A stretch of DNA of 20,630 bases, taken from NCBI GenBank assembly GCA_004000155.1, contig RCSS01000356.1, positions 1-20,630 on the forward strand, given 5' to 3'. A program made the translations under genes and the position numbers. The notes under the pieces are model-generated. The model was given only the letters and a program-made list of their open reading frames with translations. It searched no databases and was not told the DNA's origin. Position 1 is the first letter of the stretch, and every line of letters starts with the position of its first letter. Source of the stretch: Tubulinosema ratisbonensis (Eukaryota > Microsporidia > Tubulinosematidae). Shown here in pieces: positions 1,034-19,755 of this stretch.

Positions 1034-1928
1034 ATAAACGAAGAACTCTTTACAGTGATAAATGAAAAATATATTATTCTTCACACGTTAGATGTAGAAA
1101 GTACTATATATTTTTGCAAAGAGCTTGGTCTGTTGGCTCAAAGCAGAAATTGTCCAGTTTGTGGAAGCCAGATGCGTGAAAGCAAAGGTGGAAACACTGT
1201 TATAAATTTAAGGTGGCGTTGCTACAGACCATGTAGCAAAGAACTAAGTTACTTAAAGGGGAGCTTTTTTGAAGGTTGCTCGGCTCCTTTAGATAAATTG
1301 TTATGTTTATCTATTTGTGAGCATGGGAGGACCTAAATTTTAAAAAATGTAAGCGATAACTGGGGTATAGTGAACATTTTTTTGTTGATTAGAGGTCTTT
1401 CTTACGTGAAGTATGCTTTTTAACTCTCATTAATGAGACTAATAATCAAATTGGTGGAGAAGGAGTTATTGTACAAATAGACGAAAGTTTATTTGTCAAG
1501 AGAAAGTATCAAGTGAAAAGAATAACTTCAATCAACAGTGGGTATTAGGTGGTATTGACTGCAATACTCATGAAATATTTATGGTTCCTGTCCAAAACAG
1601 AAAAGCGAGCACCCTTGAAACAGCTATTTTACGTTACGTAAGACAAGGGTCCCTTATTATTATAGAAAAGTGGGCTGAATATAGCAGATTATCTAATTTA
1701 GGATATTTACACTTGACTGTAAATCATTCTGAAAATTTTATTGACCCTGAAACCGGTGCAAATACACAACTCATCGAAAATACTTGGATGAGAGTGAAAA
1801 AGAGAAGTAAAAAAGACTGTGGTACAAAAGAGTCAATGTTAGAAAGTTATCTTATCTTGGTGAATTTGCTTGGAGACAGAAATATGGAAAACCCCCCTTT
1901 TTATTTTATTATTAAGCATATTTGCTAA
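1034..1928 (+). pseudogene. Broken Merlin (IS1595/ISXO2-like) transposase
   Basis: Family features are spread over three frames. An N-terminal zinc-binding segment (CPVCG, then WRC and C) is followed by KGSFFEG at about 1055-1336. A middle part reads RSFLREVCFLTLINE and then VIVQIDESLF, with the first catalytic Asp at 1480-1482. The C-terminal part at 1581-1928 has GYLHLTVNHSENFIDPETGA and the third acidic residue at 1776-1778 (LIENTW). Lesions seen: the likely start codon reads ATA (1034-1036); the frame is lost after about 1320; a base seems missing near 1372; a Trp codon of the VDW motif reads TAG (1390-1392); another shift lies around 1515-1525. The second catalytic Asp is Glu (1665-1667, IIIEKWAEY). 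The copy should not produce active enzyme. Confidence 0.88.
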
Positions 1929-2838: not shown

Positions 2839-3591
2839 TTACATTTCATAACCAATAAGAAATATCCTATAAATCACTGTATATTCTTTTCNACCATAAT
2901 TANTTAAAATATCAAAAATAAACTTATCACTCATCAAATCACATTCATAAAAAGACAAAGTATCATTTAAAAAAGTAAAAGGAACATTATTTACAGTAAA
3001 ATTTTTGATAGCAGAAGAAGTATTTTTAGTTTTAGGATGGAATATTCCTATTTTGGTAATTTTGACAGGGTTAGGAAAAGTAAAAGTAATTTTGCCTGTG
3101 CTGCCATAAAATGAAAAACATTTTGAATTATCCAGTAAAACACAATGAGGATCAATAGATTGAAGTGAAAAAAAGCCAAATTTGTAAGGTAAGGATGTAC
3201 AATCATACAAAACTTTACACTGTTTCTCCAATGAACAAAGGTTTTCTGTCTTATTTTTTAACAAACTAAGCTCTTCTTTTATTTTTTCATAATCTTCAGG
3301 TACATTTTTTACTTCTCTGATCACTTCATTTATCACAGGTACACTCTTTTTTACGTAAAAATTGGTAAAAAGTAAAACAAATATCAGAGAAACAATCACA
3401 AATTTGTAAAAAAAAGTGGTAAATTGGTAACTTTTTTCTTCTTCGACTGAGGCTGTCTCCATTTCTGTTAGTGAACTGTTTTTGATTGTTGAGCTGTCGT
3501 GTTCTTTTGTCTTTGGGGTTTGAAATATGTTTTCTTTGTTGAAGTATTTGTCTATTGGTTTGTTAATTTGTAATTTGTATTTTCTATCCAT
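2839..3591 (-). CDS. SUN-domain inner nuclear membrane protein
   Basis: SUN proteins sit in the inner nuclear membrane and grip KASH partners across the perinuclear space, linking the spindle pole or chromosomes to the envelope. This 250-aa protein has a polar nucleoplasmic N-terminus (1-58), one membrane segment at about 60-79 (FVIVSLIFVLLFTNF core), a short coiled coil at about 84-118 and a C-terminal SUN domain at about 145-249. The domain shows CFSFYGSTGKITFTF (equivalent to the C/W-x-F-x-G-x-G segment), KITKIGIFHP, IKNFTV, and the family-ending NYG-x-KEYTVIYRIFLIGY. It is much shorter than animal SUN1/2 and closer to minimal fungal forms. The start is supported by TTTACCC ending 4 nt upstream. 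Two residues (230, 234) are unresolved by Ns. The family assignment is firm; the subfamily is not resolvable. Confidence 0.82.
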   Translation of the reverse strand: MDRKYKLQINKPIDKYFNKENIFQTPKTKEHDSSTIKNSSLTEMETASVEEEKSYQFTTFFYKFVIVSLIFVLLFTNFYVKKSVPVINEVIREVKNVPEDYEKIKEELSLLKNKTENLCSLEKQCKVLYDCTSLPYKFGFFSLQSIDPHCVLLDNSKCFSFYGSTGKITFTFPNPVKITKIGIFHPKTKNTSSAIKNFTVNNVPFTFLNDTLSFYECDLMSDKFIFDILXNYGXKEYTVIYRIFLIGYEM

Positions 3592-3823: not shown

Positions 3824-4045
3824 TCAAAAGAAAATAGATTTAAGTTTTAACAATCCAAAATAAAAACACAAAATGGCTACGTATGGTGACAATCTTTCAC
3901 CAACAATACTGGCTTTATAGCTAATGGTCCCTAATTTACCATCCTTGTTTACCATCGAAGGAAACTTTTTCTTTAAAAACGTGGCTGTACAGATTACCAA
4001 AACTATTGTTCTTAACAGGGCAGTAAAGTTAAACAGAGCAGACAT
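3824..4045 (-). CDS. KSH1: KSH1 / Kish (TMEM167) early secretory pathway protein
   Basis: Kish proteins are tiny, conserved two-pass membrane proteins of the ER-Golgi secretory route. The 73-aa protein begins MSALFNFTALLRTIVLVICT, which follows the family pattern MSA-x-FNF-x-SLL, and contains the hallmark IVGERLSPYVA at 47-57, followed by the second membrane segment. The frame stays open upstream to 4144, but those 33 residues are a low-complexity Phe/Tyr/Leu run from AT-rich DNA. The start at 4045 is preferred because it gives the family's usual length of about 72 aa and is preceded by TTTATCC, a CCC-like variant, four bases before the ATG. It is divergently arranged with NOP58, with 93 nt between the start codons. 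Confidence 0.88.
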   Translation of the reverse strand: MSALFNFTALLRTIVLVICTATFLKKKFPSMVNKDGKLGTISYKASIVGERLSPYVAILCFYFGLLKLKSIFF

Positions 4046-11781: not shown

Positions 11782-12891
11782 TTAATGAAGTTTCTTTTTA
11801 ATACTCCTTAAAACATCATCCCCCTTTTCTACCAGCACATTCACATAATCATAAGACTCTTCTACAACACTAACAGTCATAGCCACTCTGTCTATTTTAC
11901 AATTCAATTTGTCAATGTAAATAAAATAAATCAACTCATCTTCTAAAACTTTAACATCAATATTAAAAATATCAGCCATGGTTTGTAAGGAAAGTGTTTT
12001 ATAACTGGATAATAATTGTTGATAAGCTCTGACTAAAATTTCTCTTAAAAAGATATTTACATATCTTTTTNAGTGTAATTCTTCATTCAGGTAAAATACA
12101 AACATATACAAATTTTCTAATATGTTTGAGTAATCACAGTTGTAAAGTGATTCTGCTAATCTTATTCCTACTTCTAATCTTTCTCTTTCTTCTAAAATAC
12201 TACTTGAAGTAAGAATCTTTTCATAAATTTCGTTTCTTTTGTAAGAAAGTAAACCTGTAAAGATTGTGTATAAACACAATTTGTTAAAAGAAAATAACTC
12301 TTTAGAATCAAAAGTTGTCAAAGATTCATGAAATAAAATGGATGCTCTTTTAAAATCTCCTTTTTTTAAACAAAAAATTCCTTCGTAAACCTTAAATTTG
12401 TTTTTTCTATCCCAGTCACACCCACTTTCACACAATTCCTTTGCTAAAATGATAGAATTTTCTAACAAATGAACATTTTTTAAAATTAAAGCCATTCTTA
12501 TTTTACAAAGTAAAACATCCATGTTCAAAGAAACTGAAGGATTTATAGAAGTAATTTTTTTCATAAAATGTTCACTATTTTCTAAATCAAGGATTTTTGC
12601 ATAAAATTCTGCTAATTCTCTTTCTTTTTCATAAATAATTGCTTCGTTATCACTGTTCTCTTCTATTTCTTTCTTTAGTTGGCTTATTTTTGCTTGGTTC
12701 TTCTCTTTTAATGCATTATATTCATTTTTATCAAAAGAGATTAAATCTTCTTCGTAAAATTTCTCGTACAAACTAACCATTCCTTCTTCTACAACAAATT
12801 TCTTAAGTTCTTCTGACTTAGTTTTGTTTAACTTTGCTTTATGCACCAAATTTAATATTTCAAGGCTCGGTTTTTTAAATTCTAATTCCAT
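11782..12891 (-). CDS. RPN7: RPN7 (PSMD6) 26S proteasome lid subunit
   Basis: RPN7 is a PCI-domain scaffold of the proteasome regulatory particle lid. The 369-aa protein (family about 390-430) has an N-terminal helical repeat region, the diagnostic GCDWDRKNKFKVYEGIFCL at 157-175 followed by GDFKRASILFHESLTTF, and a C-terminal PCI domain at about 225-345 with a winged-helix part (LSLQTMADIFNIDVKVLEDE). The frame is open further upstream to 12948, but the extra 19 residues are low-complexity and would overlap the divergent neighbour's start. The ATG at 12891 is chosen because TTTACCC abuts it exactly, as at MAD1. One residue (274) is unresolved. It is head-to-head with the FY-rich gene. Confidence 0.92.
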   Translation of the reverse strand: MELEFKKPSLEILNLVHKAKLNKTKSEELKKFVVEEGMVSLYEKFYEEDLISFDKNEYNALKEKNQAKISQLKKEIEENSDNEAIIYEKERELAEFYAKILDLENSEHFMKKITSINPSVSLNMDVLLCKIRMALILKNVHLLENSIILAKELCESGCDWDRKNKFKVYEGIFCLKKGDFKRASILFHESLTTFDSKELFSFNKLCLYTIFTGLLSYKRNEIYEKILTSSSILEERERLEVGIRLAESLYNCDYSNILENLYMFVFYLNEELHXKRYVNIFLREILVRAYQQLLSSYKTLSLQTMADIFNIDVKVLEDELIYFIYIDKLNCKIDRVAMTVSVVEESYDYVNVLVEKGDDVLRSIKKKLH

Positions 12892-12936: not shown

Positions 12937-13557
12937 ATGAATGATCAAACAAAAAGCACAGAAAAAAAATATGAAAAAATAAATGACATGATTAATTTAA
13001 GAGAGAGCCTTAAACTTAAAAATTTTGAGTTGGATGAAGAAAGTAAAGATACTTTGGCTAGTAATTTATGCATGTATGACTTAATTTTGTTAAACAACAG
13101 TATTTTAAACAAAGAAAGCATTACCACTGACATTACATCAGGGATAAAAGACAATTATGAACTGACAACTTTAGCTAAACCTTTTATTTGCATTGGTAAA
13201 AAATCTTTGATTGTGGTAATAAATTTTGGCATAAAACCAAAGGACAACCAAGGAAATTTTATAAAAGCAAATTATTTTATTCCCATAAATTATAAAGCTA
13301 AAAGATTATTCGATAAACACAATAAGATTGGAGAGCCAGGAAATATGTTTTACACTTGTAAAGTTACAGCTAAAAAGAATATTCCTGTGTATTCTATTGT
13401 AACAGATGATGGATTAAGGTTTATAGGTGGTAAAGAGATTTTTAAAGAATTTTCTGGACTGTTTGGCAGTAATTTTGATTTTAAGAACATTGATGACTTT
13501 TTTGGTATCACTGAAGTGGGGATACAAAAGAAATTGGAAGCTAGAGAATTTGAATAA
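12937..13557 (+). CDS. FY-rich (FYRN/FYRC) domain protein
   Basis: FYRN and FYRC are paired halves of one fold found in chromatin proteins such as MLL/trithorax, plant JmjC demethylases and TBRG1. This 206-aa protein has a polar N-terminus (1-80). An FYRN-like part at about 88-128 includes KSLIVVINFG and YFIPINYKAKRLF, equivalent to the family's Y-x-x-P-x-GYxSxR pattern. An FYRC-like part at about 137-202 includes MFYTCKV, PVYSIVTDDG, a glycine-aromatic stretch and FFGITEVGIQKKLE, the family's FGL-x-x-P-x-V ending. No SET, PHD or JmjC domain is present, so it resembles a stand-alone adaptor of the TBRG1 kind. A nuclear role is inferred from the domain only. No CCC-like motif precedes the start; the context is AAAGCATG, as at the haspin gene. 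Confidence 0.72.
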   Translation: MNDQTKSTEKKYEKINDMINLRESLKLKNFELDEESKDTLASNLCMYDLILLNNSILNKESITTDITSGIKDNYELTTLAKPFICIGKKSLIVVINFGIKPKDNQGNFIKANYFIPINYKAKRLFDKHNKIGEPGNMFYTCKVTAKKNIPVYSIVTDDGLRFIGGKEIFKEFSGLFGSNFDFKNIDDFFGITEVGIQKKLEAREFE

Positions 13558-13691: not shown

Positions 13692-14978
13692 ATGAATTTT
13701 AAAAAAACCCTAAGAATGCAAGCAGAAAGATCTCATCAGTTGCTTAGAAAGTACTGTTCATACACCTTCTTTAACCTTTTGTTTATAGCAGCCATAGCAA
13801 ATATGTTCTCTAAGAATTTATTTAATACCCTCAACAAGCCACTTTACTACATCCACAGAGTCAAAAACATAGAATACATTTTCTTTCTGGCATCATTCAC
13901 AATGGTACTATACTTACAGTATGAAAAGTATGTTCAGAATATCTCTAAAAAGAAACTCTTTATTTTAACATTTCTTTCCAGAATGATTTTTTATTCTACT
14001 TTTAAAATTGTGCTTTATTTTGGTTTTGGATTGTCAGTCAATTATTACAGAAATTTTGTTTTATTTATTATTTTNAATTTGTGGTTTGCTTTGTTTGACT
14101 TGTTTTATTATTTTAGTGGCAAAGTAAATATTAAGACTTACAAGCCAGAAGGGGTTATAATTTTATTTTTTAAAAAATCATGGACATTTTTAAAAGAGAG
14201 CCATAAAACAATGATTTTACCTTTTATTTTATCATTTATAACTTATAAATCACTCAGAACTATTTGTTTTAATTACATTTTAAAGAAAGAAAATTCATTT
14301 TTTAAAGAAATTTTTCATTATTTTATTTCTTTTTTGGTGTGTTATATTTCTTCTTTCTTTTTCAACTTTCTTCATAATTTAACTATTTTTTCTTATGATT
14401 ATAACATAAGCAACGTAGATAATTGTATTTTTAATGATGTTAAGTTTGAAGAATTAGAAGTTCATCCTTTATTCTTTAATAAATTAATGAGTTGTTTTGA
14501 AGAAATGAACACAAAAATAAAAATAGTAAAAACCAAGGCAGTGGTAAATTATTTAAAAAAATGTATGTTTTTAGAAGTAGAAAAGATAAAAGAAATACTT
14601 AAAAAATTAGAAGAACTTTATTGGAATGTACAAAGTACAAAATATTTTCTTTTCACTGAGTGTAGAGTAGTAAAGAAAAACCAGCCTGATCCTGTTTTTA
14701 AAAGGTTACCAACTTATAATTATATAGAAATTTTTAAAGAAGAANNCAAAGCATTTTTTATAAAAAAATTTTATAAATTTGCTTTGAATAATTCATTTGA
14801 ATATTTAAAAGAAATGTATTCTTTTATGGAGGATGCTGATAAACAAGATGGATTATTTAAATTAATAGATGATGTAAATTATGCAGTAAAAAAAGATTTA
14901 AACAACTTAAAAGAAAAGGGTGTAGACTTAGAAAGAAAATTAGGGCTCTTCTTATGGAAGGATGTATTATCTCAATAA
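13692..14978 (+). CDS. Six-pass membrane protein, candidate nucleoporin NDC1
   Basis: I do not recognise this by sequence motifs. The 428-aa protein has about six hydrophobic segments in the first 230 residues (approximately 24-40, 58-77, 88-112, 119-142, 173-190 and 205-230). A soluble C-terminal half of about 200 residues follows, mostly charged helix (for example EVEKIKEILKKLEELYWN). Short basic N-terminus, six membrane passes and a cytosolic tail is the layout of NDC1, the nuclear-pore and spindle-pole-body anchor, and the size would be a reduced version. Other multi-pass envelope proteins would fit equally well. Two unresolved residues come from Ns at about 14075 and 14745-14746. It ends 39 nt before the convergent ARV1 stop. 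Confidence 0.5.
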   Translation: MNFKKTLRMQAERSHQLLRKYCSYTFFNLLFIAAIANMFSKNLFNTLNKPLYYIHRVKNIEYIFFLASFTMVLYLQYEKYVQNISKKKLFILTFLSRMIFYSTFKIVLYFGFGLSVNYYRNFVLFIIXNLWFALFDLFYYFSGKVNIKTYKPEGVIILFFKKSWTFLKESHKTMILPFILSFITYKSLRTICFNYILKKENSFFKEIFHYFISFLVCYISSFFFNFLHNLTIFSYDYNISNVDNCIFNDVKFEELEVHPLFFNKLMSCFEEMNTKIKIVKTKAVVNYLKKCMFLEVEKIKEILKKLEELYWNVQSTKYFLFTECRVVKKNQPDPVFKRLPTYNYIEIFKEEXKAFFIKKFYKFALNNSFEYLKEMYSFMEDADKQDGLFKLIDDVNYAVKKDLNNLKEKGVDLERKLGLFLWKDVLSQ

Positions 14979-15017: not shown

Positions 15018-15654
15018 TTAATTTTTAATGAATAATATTTCACAAATAAAATAAGAAATAATTTTTGATAGTAAAATTAGAAAGAGTGCTTTAAAAAAAG
15101 AGATTCTTTTCATTAACTTAACCACTTTAACATTTACAATTAAATTAATAAAATTTAACACATATTCATATTCACTCTTACTTTCATAATCCCAAAGTAT
15201 AAACAGGAATTTAATAGACAATAAATATTCACTAAAAATTAATGCCCATGTTAACTTAAAGAAATTTTCTGACATAAACAAACTAAGAATACTTGCATAA
15301 AATAAGAAATGAAATAAAATTTTAACAAATGCATAAAAAACCAAAGAATAAACAAAATTCTTAGCACTTTCTTTACAAAACAACATAACTTCTATCCAAA
15401 TATTAAACATTTTAAATAAAAACAGCTTCTTTCTGTCTAAATGATTGTTATATATAAAATGTATCAACACTTTATTTTTAAAAAGTAATAATTCTATTAC
15501 CTTTACTGTTTCTGATAATTCAAAGTATTTGTCTACGTATTTTTTGCAGAATTTCTAATTAAGTTTTACTTACGCATTTTGTTAATTGAATGTAATTTTG
15601 TCTTTCTCTAAATATTCTTTTTGCTTTGTTATTGCATTCTACGCACCTGTTCAT
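15018..15654 (-). CDS. ARV1: ARV1 lipid-homeostasis ER protein, two exons
   Basis: ARV1 is an ER membrane protein needed for sterol and GPI-precursor distribution. Exon 1 (15574-15654) encodes 27 residues with CVEC (Cys4, Cys7) and ends in Cys27; a 19-nt intron (15555-15573) follows. Exon 2 (15018-15554) opens with KFC, completing the second zinc pair CKFC (27-30), then YVDKYFEL and VIELLLFKNKVLIHFIYNNH, which is the ARV1 homology domain order (CxxC-x19-CxxC-DKYIE-LLLxKxxVYRHLxxN). About four membrane segments lie in the last 115 residues. The spliced protein is 205 aa. Without splicing, the exon 1 frame stops four codons after Cys27, and exon 2 alone lacks the zinc ribbon. No CCC-like motif is seen before the ATG. 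Confidence 0.87.
15555..15573 (-). other. 19-nt spliceosomal intron in ARV1
   Basis: The minus-strand sequence is GTAAGTAAAACTTAATTAG. It has a perfect GTAAGT donor, a branch-point-like ACTTAAT merged with the acceptor TAG, and sits near the 5' end in phase 0, as microsporidian introns usually do. Removing it joins Cys27 to KFC and restores the zinc ribbon. Length is not a multiple of three and contains an in-frame TAA. The next downstream AG would put exon 2 in the wrong frame. Confidence 0.85.
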
Positions 15655-16980: not shown

Positions 16981-17541
16981 TTATTCAAGAGAATAAATAT
17001 TCTTAGTCCAATATTGTCCTCCTTCTAAATTATCCTGGTGTGACCTGAAAAAATAGGAAGGATAGTTTTCTAAATTAACCAATTCTCTCCACTGCTTTCC
17101 TATATCCAAAACACTACTATCCTTTAAATTGGTCCAAATAGCAAATCTATTAACATACTTCCTAGCAGAAAACACTGCACCACAGATCAATTCTTCAGGA
17201 ATACATTCAGAAGCGCAGAATAAAACTGTTTTCTTCCACACTTGTTGTAAGTCAACACCTTCATCTCCTTTCATTATTTCAAATACCCATTTTCCACCGC
17301 CAATGTTATATTTATCCTCCCAGGCAGGTTGGATATCATCTCTAAAAAAGTGAATGTTGGAAGAGACTGGCCAGTCAGCAAGTGGTTCTATGTTTTCTAC
17401 CGCGTAAAGCATGGTTGGTACGTCTGTTACTGTTACTACTTTATGTAAATTGTTTTGCCATTCTTCAGTGCTAGCATTTTTCTTTGCTTTACAGTCATAC
17501 CAAATGGTCCAAGGTGTTTGTAAGAGGTATTGGCTTTCCAT
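16981..17541 (-). CDS. eIF4E-family mRNA cap-binding protein
   Basis: eIF4E binds the m7G cap and, through eIF4G, recruits ribosomes. The 186-aa protein begins with the strand segment LLQTPWTIWYDC. Cap-stacking Trp28 (EEWQNNL) and Trp74-Glu75 (IQPAWEDKYN) are present, as are GGGKWVFE, the ICGAVFSAR core and the phosphate-binding basics Arg127 and Arg132, then FAIWT. The dorsal Trp that contacts eIF4G and 4E-BP (Trp73 in human, in VEDFW) is Leu45 here (VPTML), which is unusual. A start 12 nt upstream (17553, adding MPCS) is open, but a CCC motif lies inside that stretch, so the ATG at 17541 is preferred. Codon choice is noticeably less A/T-biased than in neighbouring genes. Confidence 0.88.
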   Translation of the reverse strand: MESQYLLQTPWTIWYDCKAKKNASTEEWQNNLHKVVTVTDVPTMLYAVENIEPLADWPVSSNIHFFRDDIQPAWEDKYNIGGGKWVFEIMKGDEGVDLQQVWKKTVLFCASECIPEELICGAVFSARKYVNRFAIWTNLKDSSVLDIGKQWRELVNLENYPSYFFRSHQDNLEGGQYWTKNIYSLE

Positions 17542-17547
17542 AGAGCA

Positions 17548-17554
17548 GGGCATA
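17548..17554 (-). promoter_or_regulatory. CCC-like motif that decides the eIF4E start
   Basis: On the minus strand TATGCCC, then TGCTCT, then the ATG at 17541. The first ATG (17553) lies inside this motif, so transcripts starting at or after the motif would lack it. Confidence 0.4.
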
Positions 17555-17634: not shown

Positions 17635-18300
17635 TTACCATTTATTGTAATATTTACAATAAAATTTAACATTACATTCCTTACAATTTGGTTTTACAGG
17701 TCTACAAATAGTCTGACCAAATCCAACAAATAAATTATTAATCAAATACCAATCATCTTTTAAAAAAATATTTTCTAATTTTTCTCTTGTTTGTTTGGTA
17801 GATTTACTTTTAACNAATCCTATTCTATTACTAACCCTATGTACGTGTGTATCCACACTTATCCCTAACACTTTATTCTCTGCATGTTGCATGTACAAAT
17901 AAGCCATTTTTTCTCCTACACCAGGTAATTTAATTAATCCTTCAAAAGTGTTTGGTAACCCTGTGATTAAACATTCTTCCGCTATNTTTTTTAAAAAAAC
18001 ACTCTTTTTATTATGAAATCCTACACTTTTAATAAGTTTGTTTATTTCTTCTAAAGAAGTGTCATAGATACTTTGTAGTGTCAATCCATTCTTTAAATTA
18101 TTTTCTAAAATTTTTACAGAATTATAAGTCACTTCATCTCTTGTTTGAGAGGATAGAAGGATTGCAATAAATATTTTAAGTTTGTTATCCTTTCCAATTG
18201 CTTTACATCCAAATAAATCTACTGGTGCATTTCTATCTTCTCTGTGTAATTTTATGCAATTTAATATTTTATAAGCTAAGTTGTTTTGAATGATTGGCAT
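17635..18300 (-). CDS. NTH1: Endonuclease III homolog NTH1 (base-excision repair glycosylase/AP lyase)
   Basis: It removes oxidised pyrimidines and cleaves the abasic site. The 221-aa protein carries SSQTRDEV at 50-57, the helix-hairpin-helix LPGVGEKMAYL at 125-135 with catalytic Lys131, catalytic Asp150 in VDTHVHRVSNRIG, and a 4Fe-4S loop with Cys199-x6-Cys206-x2-Cys209-x5-Cys215 near the end. All catalytic and cluster residues are intact, and the length is close to bacterial Nth (211 aa), with almost no N-terminal extension, so nuclear or mitosomal targeting signals are not apparent. Residues 105 and 162 are unresolved by Ns. The start has no CCC-like motif. It runs in the same direction as eIF4E, 81-93 nt from it. 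Confidence 0.94.
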   Translation of the reverse strand: MPIIQNNLAYKILNCIKLHREDRNAPVDLFGCKAIGKDNKLKIFIAILLSSQTRDEVTYNSVKILENNLKNGLTLQSIYDTSLEEINKLIKSVGFHNKKSVFLKXIAEECLITGLPNTFEGLIKLPGVGEKMAYLYMQHAENKVLGISVDTHVHRVSNRIGXVKSKSTKQTREKLENIFLKDDWYLINNLFVGFGQTICRPVKPNCKECNVKFYCKYYNKW

Positions 18301-18471: not shown

Positions 18472-19755
18472 ATGAAAAGAAGTATGCCATTTTTTAACGA
18501 TTCATTTTCTAAACAGAAAAACAAATTCACAGCACTGAAAAATAAATTAACCAACAAGAAAGAAGAAATAAAGGAGGAAAATTCATTTTTAAAAAGCCTT
18601 AAAAAGGATTATAACATACTAATTAAAGAAGAAAAAAAAGAACCAGAATTAGCACAGCTTTTATTAAAAAAGGTGAATAGATTGGGAAAGAAGAATGTTT
18701 TAGAAAAGCGTCCTTTTGTGAAAGAAGATTTCTCCTTTTTAGATGAATCATTCAATTCTGTCCAATTAATAGAAAATTCTCTTAAAAATGAAAATTTAAT
18801 TAATTTTAATTCAATTTTTAATAAAAAATTGGGAGAAAAAGACAAAATTAAAAGATTAAAGAAAGTTTCCATNCCTTTAAAAGAACAATGTTCTTTTTTA
18901 GATTTAGCTTTAGAAGTAAAAATAGAAAAAATAAAATTTTCTGAGCTAAAATTAAAAGGAATTAAAAAAATAGCAGAAGCTTCTTTTTCAGACGTATATT
19001 TACATGACAGTGTAATTTATAAGGTTATCCCATTAGATGTTGGGGATAAACCTAATTTGGATGATTTTATAAAAGAAACTTACATTCATCAAACAATTTC
19101 TAAAGAAAAAGGTGTGTGTAAACTAAAAAAAGTGTATTTGGCCAAAGGAAAATACTCTTCTTACTTTCTCAAAGCATGGGAAGAATTCAAAAAAGAAAAA
19201 GGGACTGACAACCAAAATCCAATTGAATACCCAAAAAATAATTTATTTGGCATTTTTGTTTTAGAAGAATGTGGCATTGATTTAGAAAAGTATGTTTTTA
19301 AAAGTAAAGAAGAAGTATTTTGCATTTTAAACCAAATTTTCAGAACAATAAGCCATTTAGAAAAGGTGTATGAATTCGAACATAGAGATTTGCATTGGGG
19401 AAATATTTTAATAAAAGATTCACAGATAAAAATCATTGATTTCTCATTGGCAAGGATTACAAAGAAAAAAGTGATTTTTATTGATTTAAAAAATAAAGAA
19501 TGGCTATTTTCTGGGAATGAGAAAACTGATGAACAATTTGGCATTTATAAAAAAATGAAAATTTTGACAGATGATGATTGGATGATTCATACACCTAAAA
19601 ATAATGTGCTTTGGTTGGTGTATTTGATTAATAAAATAATTTTACTAACCAATAATAAATTAAGGGTTAGTACCTTTCTTAACAAAATTAAGTCTTTGGT
19701 TAAGAATTGTAAAAGTGCTTTAGATGCTTATGAAGTATTAAGGAATGTTCTATGA
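18472..19755 (+). CDS. Haspin-like histone H3 Thr3 kinase
   Basis: Haspin phosphorylates histone H3 Thr3 at mitosis and so positions the chromosomal passenger complex. The 427-aa protein has a Lys/Glu-rich N-terminus (1-155) and a divergent kinase domain. It shows a degenerate glycine loop (AEASFSDVYL), Lys184 in VIYKVIPLD, Glu202 in FIKETYIHQ, LEECGIDLEKY in the hinge region, the catalytic loop HRDLHWGNILI with Asp306 and Asn311, and IIDFSLARI in place of the usual haspin DYT. The family hallmark DDDW-x-IHTPKNNVLWLVYL at 367-384 is clear and separates it from other kinases; there is no APE motif, as in haspin. Residue 134 is unresolved. The start context is AAAGCATG with no CCC motif. Confidence 0.9.
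   Translation: MKRSMPFFNDSFSKQKNKFTALKNKLTNKKEEIKEENSFLKSLKKDYNILIKEEKKEPELAQLLLKKVNRLGKKNVLEKRPFVKEDFSFLDESFNSVQLIENSLKNENLINFNSIFNKKLGEKDKIKRLKKVSXPLKEQCSFLDLALEVKIEKIKFSELKLKGIKKIAEASFSDVYLHDSVIYKVIPLDVGDKPNLDDFIKETYIHQTISKEKGVCKLKKVYLAKGKYSSYFLKAWEEFKKEKGTDNQNPIEYPKNNLFGIFVLEECGIDLEKYVFKSKEEVFCILNQIFRTISHLEKVYEFEHRDLHWGNILIKDSQIKIIDFSLARITKKKVIFIDLKNKEWLFSGNEKTDEQFGIYKKMKILTDDDWMIHTPKNNVLWLVYLINKIILLTNNKLRVSTFLNKIKSLVKNCKSALDAYEVLRNVL

Follow-up and report, generated by a model that had tools for sequence, protein, structure and literature searches.

Published intron sizes in microsporidia include 22-76 nt (PMC3629993) or 23-52 nt (PMC2784321) in E. cuniculi, 24-33 nt in O. bayeri (PMC2784321) and a mean of 28 nt in H. 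tvaerminnensis (PMC10542269), while the 36-306 nt given for E. bieneusi are unvalidated predictions (PMC2607024). In E. cuniculi and O. bayeri the introns have GT-AG ends, with strict donor and branch motifs in E. cuniculi (PMC3629993, PMC2784321), and both species have introns within or close to the start codon in ribosomal protein genes, among them those for L37a (= RPL43) and L39 (PMC2784321). The intron motif of Trachipleistophora hominis has been written as GTA[AG]GT...TAATT{0,4}AG, an expression that sets no length (PMC3486916). Introns of equal or smaller size occur elsewhere in eukaryotes, at 15-16 nt in heterotrich ciliates, 16-17 nt in mikrocytids and 18-21 nt in nucleomorphs (PMC10245619).

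Tubulinosema ratisbonensis is a microsporidian parasite of Drosophila for which a draft genome (7,555,974 nt, 952 contigs, 23.2% GC) and RNA-seq from infected S2R+ cells have been published (PMC6675976). The word intron is absent from the genome announcement, and no report of introns in this species appeared in the titles and abstract openings that were searched. The window analyzed here is one entire contig (C136 in our numbering; 20,630 nt), in which an ARV1 gene on the minus strand (15654-15018) is interrupted by 19 nt that fit the T. hominis motif exactly. This insert is very probably a genuine U2-type spliceosomal intron, and one of a uniform class of 19-20 nt, a reading drawn from the sequence of the gene and of the searched genome.

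The ARV1 gene and its 19-nt insert

Exon 1 of the gene (15574..15654, minus strand; MNRCVECNNKAKRIFRERQNYIQLTKC) consists of 27 codons and holds the first CxxC pair together with the first Cys of the second. The insert, GTAAGTAAAACTTAATTAG (15555..15573, minus strand), lies in phase 0, after the Cys of codon 27 and ahead of the Lys of codon 28, and is followed by an exon 2 of 178 codons and a stop (15018..15554, minus strand) that starts with KFCKKYVDKYFE and continues into hydrophobic stretches. The insert has GT-AG ends and opens with the donor consensus GTAAGT (15568..15573, minus strand), in which +4A, +5G and +6T proved complementary to the ACU of U6 in a pairing check, and it closes with TTAATTAG (15555..15562, minus strand), whose TTAAT is presumed to be the branch element; the branch A would then lie 2 nt ahead of the acceptor AG. 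This branch assignment follows the published microsporidian motif (PMC3486916) and has that motif as its basis. The perfect GTAAGT donor and the branch-like element at the acceptor that were described in the original prediction are thus both present, the branch as a motif match.

When the 19 nt are kept, the first frame reads MNR...LTKCVSKT and stops, four residues beyond exon 1, and when the frame of exon 2 is read backwards an in-frame TAG stands immediately upstream of it, so that neither frame spans the insert. When they are removed, 205 codons without a stop encode a 205-aa product in which C4, C7, C27 and C30 form the two CxxC pairs of a zinc ribbon. Checked in the sequence, the insert, its coordinates, length and phase, and the 205-aa spliced product are all as first proposed; the description of exon 2 alone as a 150-aa protein has to be corrected, as the open reading frame (ORF) from its first ATG encodes 130 aa. 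Eight GT-AG excisions open at least 150 aa from the ARV1 ATG when 10-120 nt are removed with donors in the first 200 nt and acceptors in the first 300 nt, and among these only the 19-nt excision keeps the complete ribbon of two CxxC pairs along with the YVDKYFE segment. The window has a single match to the motif GTAAGT-N(0-28)-YTAATT-N(0-1)-AG, at the break in the ARV1 frame; in 100 shuffles of the window the mean was 0.08, with one site in each of eight shuffles.

The identity of the gene is provided by the Pfam Arv1 profile (PF04161, cut-off 20 bits), which the joined product matches at 55.3 bits with residues 3-86 on profile positions 1-92 of 202. Taken separately, exon 1 plus its four-residue read-through covers positions 1-27 at 18.4 bits, which is under the cut-off, while exon 2 covers positions 28-93 at 26.4 bits, its match starting at the second residue, so the two pieces adjoin on the profile without a gap. 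Excision therefore restores the homology as anticipated, with 55.3 bits for the joined product against 18.4 and 26.4 bits for its parts, and the 130-aa ORF from the first ATG of exon 2 obtained no Pfam score. A search of the unspliced genome sequence with the Arv1 profile gave no match, nor did the family match any control genome. The protein search proposed at the outset succeeded as far as the Pfam match of the spliced product is concerned. A search for ARV1 relatives returned the 130-aa ORF of the window itself and nothing else, and a literature search for Arv1 in microsporidia found no papers. ARV1 proteins act in lipid and sterol homeostasis at the endoplasmic reticulum, and the T. ratisbonensis protein presumably has a similar role, judged by its homology.

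Several neighbors of ARV1 could be assigned to families. They include RPN7 (11782-12891, minus strand), eIF4E (16981-17553, minus strand), an HhH-GPD base-excision enzyme (17635-18300, minus strand) and a haspin-like kinase (18472-19755, plus strand), neighbors that are expected on a eukaryotic contig. The window also contains a fragment of an IS1595/ISXO2-type transposase (1581-1928, plus strand; 47.7 bits), a SUN-domain protein (2839-3591, minus strand; Sad1_UNC, 38.2 bits), a small DUF1242 protein (3824-4045, minus strand) and a protein of 206 aa (12937-13557, plus strand) whose FYRN match, at 23.3 bits, stays under the cut-off of 24. The gene adjoining ARV1 (13692-14978, plus strand) encodes a 428-aa protein with hydrophobic stretches and no Pfam match, which may resemble an NDC1-type nucleoporin.

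Candidate introns of 19-20 nt in the genome sequence

The genome sequence searched for similar introns comprised 4,116,903 bases in 236 contigs, approximately 54% of the published assembly size. A scan for GTAAGT-N(0-28)-YTAATT-N(0-1)-AG returned 18 sites, compared with 15 in a reversed control and 17.6 expected from a first-order background, and a scan for GTAAGT-N(0-24)-TAAYTAG returned 24, compared with 22 in the control. The loose motif is thus not enriched, and the argument is carried by length and gene context. At fixed spacing, the exact form GTAAGT-N5-YTAATTAG was observed three times and its N6 counterpart six times, where the first-order background predicts 0.27 per genome for each. 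Scans that permitted one mismatch gave 19 sites for the 19-nt form (control 2) and 17 for the 20-nt form (control 11). The exact patterns covered lengths of 13-43 nt and the one-mismatch patterns lengths of 19 or 20 nt, a design that longer introns with altered motifs could escape.

Together the scans yielded 51 distinct intron-like sites, L033 having been removed beforehand because it overlaps L003, and at each of them the reading frames were compared with the stretch kept and with it removed. Frame support was obtained at 13 of the 51, and all 13 stretches are 19 nt (n = 3) or 20 nt (n = 10) long, have a GTAAGT donor and have a length that is no multiple of three; the 38 unsupported sites span 17-43 nt. 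Support was gained by three of the 26 sites that were new in the one-mismatch scans, by none of the nine with an altered donor, and by none of the seven further sites from the GTAAGT-N(0-24)-TAAYTAG scan. The boundary between supported and unsupported sites is partly a matter of judgement, since excision also produces short Met frames at three sites that were not counted (L013, 1+22 aa; L036, 8+27 aa, ending AT; L084, 5+24 aa).

Four of the supported introns are backed by conserved families, namely ARV1 (19 nt), RPL43 (20 nt), RPS3A (20 nt) and RPL39 (19 nt), and seven of the 13 fall in one family of membrane-protein genes. At the last two sites the open frame provides the support: L003 (8+74 aa) belongs to no family, and L018 (65+44 aa) has a LIM match below its cut-off. 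A separate scan for ATGGTAAGT returned 40 sites, 30 of which were excised and inspected; the spliced frame exceeded 50 aa in six of the 30, two of these being the RPL43 and RPS3A introns, and the RPL39 site, which lay outside the 30, was recovered by the GTAAGT-N(0-28) scan. The remaining four of the six (L050, L052, L053 and L061) were rejected as their frames are already open without excision, among them L050, a would-be 14-nt intron in an LSm gene.

In RPL43, RPS3A and RPL39 the GTAAGT of the intron directly follows the ATG, and a CCC stands a few bases upstream of it, which is a start signal described for microsporidia (PMC2803860). The ARV1 start codon, unlike those of these three intron-bearing ribosomal genes, has no upstream CCC. 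The closest entry in the Protein Data Bank is 6zu5, presumably of Paranosema locustae, for both eL43 and eS1, and for eL39 6zu5 comes second to 9i1w. Compared with E. cuniculi and O. bayeri, the candidate introns of T. ratisbonensis measure 19-20 nt and lie also inside ARV1 and the membrane-protein family.

The membrane-protein family (L005/L004, L023/L007, L025/L016 and L021) has introns of 19-20 nt, two per complete copy. In all three complete two-intron copies exon 1 is 435 nt and exon 2 is 269 nt long; a fourth copy, with ambiguous bases upstream, was assigned by eye. Exon DNA is 48-56% identical in two distant pairs and 74-79% in a close pair, and the introns are 85-95% identical, a value that reflects how large a share of each intron is motif and A/T. 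Exon 1 of the copy on contig C95 (13,948 bases) matches the deposited TUBRATIS_10050 at 100% and TUBRATIS_19960 at 80%, and a paralogue sits on contig C165 (25,748 bases). Both deposited proteins continue beyond exon 1 and end within the first intron or shortly past it. Two proteins of relatives, P0124 and P0125 (source tag lgn), are 65-67% identical to this exon 1. P0124 continues beyond the end of exon 1 as VSKILIRLDI, which a retained intron of this build could encode; only 3 of 300,000 random 7-residue tails qualified as intron read-through in the same way. Judged by these protein letters, the tail is possibly the read-through of a similar intron in a relative; P0125 ends in VSKF, which is compatible with a retained intron and too short to weigh.

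Introns of 19-20 nt would accordingly constitute a nearly uniform length class in the searched genome sequence of T. ratisbonensis. A narrow range at the short extreme is likewise seen in chlorarachniophyte nucleomorphs, mikrocytids and heterotrich ciliates, which are unrelated lineages; introns number over 800 in the nucleomorph and 224 in M. mackini (PMC10245619), versus 13 supported ones here. The original prediction had placed the 19-nt intron among the shortest known; it is very short but holds no record, given the lengths of 15-16, 16-17 and 18-21 nt reported for these groups (PMC10245619). A length below the microsporidian minimum, also predicted, agrees with the ranges compared, such as the 22-76 nt of E. 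cuniculi and the 24-33 nt of O. bayeri.

Spliceosome components and the U6 ACUGAGA box

A U6 snRNA was found on the minus strand of contig C15 (L001:1501-1598) at 57.9 bits, above the gathering score of 44, with flanks of 21% and 25% GC and a T run shortly after the match. The U6-binding domain of Prp8 is present on contig C7 at 111.2 bits within an open frame of 1381 codons. In the approximately 4.12 Mb searched, the N-terminal Prp8 domain PRO8NT had no match, and it matched no control genome either; U2 was returned neither by RF00004, a model that matched no control genome, nor by a 21-nt pattern with three mismatches in this approximately 54% of the assembly. U6 and a Prp8 domain agree with the expectation that this lineage keeps a spliceosome; U2 and PRO8NT were not found in the approximately 54% of the assembly searched.

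This U6 reads ACUGAGA, in contrast to the family consensus ACAGAGA, and its ACU can pair fully with the AGU at donor positions +4 to +6 in all 13 introns, which come from scans that demanded GTAAGT or allowed one mismatch overall, so that donors with more changes would escape. The central base of ACAGAGA faces donor +4, and in human U6 it carries an m6A, placed by METTL16, that makes a non-Watson-Crick contact with +4A (PMC10581693). ACAGA is conserved in 100% of the 240 species of one study (PMC10581693). The one precedent found is Cyanidioschyzon merolae, in which the central A of ACAGA is likewise changed to U, as cited in PMC10581693; C. merolae is a red alga, and the present case is a microsporidian without a METTL16-family match in the searched sequence. 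The METTL16 domain family (PF05971) gave no match in the approximately 4.12 Mb, and it matched 5 of 14 control genomes, four of them over the cut-off. A literature search on microsporidia with U6 snRNA and METTL16 found nothing.

The ACUGAGA box is thus suggestive of a Watson-Crick pair between U6 and the +4A of GTAAGT. A broader proposal, to which we give an even chance, is that the remaining introns of Tubulinosema were driven to a floor of 19-20 nt alongside a co-adapted spliceosome, in which U6 ACUGAGA pairs with the fixed +4A and replaces the METTL16-supported contact between methylated A and A, as a second and independent origin after Cyanidioschyzon.

Proposed splicing of ARV1, rival explanations and meaning

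If the ARV1 insert is spliced, U6 would pair with the GTAAGT donor. Across the class, the putative branch A within TAAT would be separated from the donor by 14-15 nt and from the acceptor AG by 2-3 nt, so that branch site and acceptor would form one compact 3' element. Excision by the spliceosome would then unite the zinc ribbon of ARV1, which is split between the exons. As a stop is met four residues into the retained intron, unspliced transcripts would give just a 31-aa peptide.

That 19 is not divisible by three and that retention halts translation would also be seen in an ARV1 pseudogene, in which a 19-bp insertion or a frameshift resembles an intron by chance. We regard this as very improbable, as the insert has a donor, a branch-like element and an acceptor of the form seen at 12 other supported sites, its removal scores above both pieces on the Arv1 profile, and the resulting 205 codons are free of stops. 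An error of assembly or sequencing, by which the 19 nt would not exist in the genome or a base would be miscalled, seems remoter still. The draft does combine 454, Illumina and RNA-seq contigs (PMC6675976), and the window contains 12 ambiguous bases; however, no N is close to 15555-15573, other contigs carry inserts that are built alike, and a single-base error by itself would not account for the surplus residues between LTKC and KFC.

A further alternative refines the intron reading rather than replacing it, and holds that a real intron stays in most transcripts, whether as a relic or as a switch, so that these carry the stop and yield no ARV1. Median splicing is 25.3% in V. culicis (PMC4435813), splicing ranges from 7.5 to 92.3% in H. 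tvaerminnensis (PMC10542269), and six of eight candidates in S. lophii are unspliced, the two that are spliced being much longer (PMC3749934), which together with the very short length of the ARV1 intron lends this alternative some weight. The two spliced introns of S. lophii, however, also break the frame and lie further from the start codon, at 89 and 152 nt (PMC3749934), and the ARV1 intron likewise breaks the frame, at 81 nt from its start codon, so we consider predominant retention unlikely. A genuine, spliced 19-nt intron in ARV1 is the reading we prefer, and, incomplete splicing being frequent in microsporidia, the amount of ARV1 made may vary with how efficiently the intron is removed.

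Short-read aligners whose default minimum intron is near 20 nt would miss the 19-20-nt class. Since TUBRATIS_10050 and TUBRATIS_19960 run into an intron, other gene models of T. ratisbonensis may be shortened in the same way. The U6 change would offer a natural experiment on the recognition of +4A donors in a genome in which no METTL16-family gene is seen. A genuine intron in ARV1 would lower the smallest microsporidian intron size, among the published ranges compared, from 22 to 19 nt.
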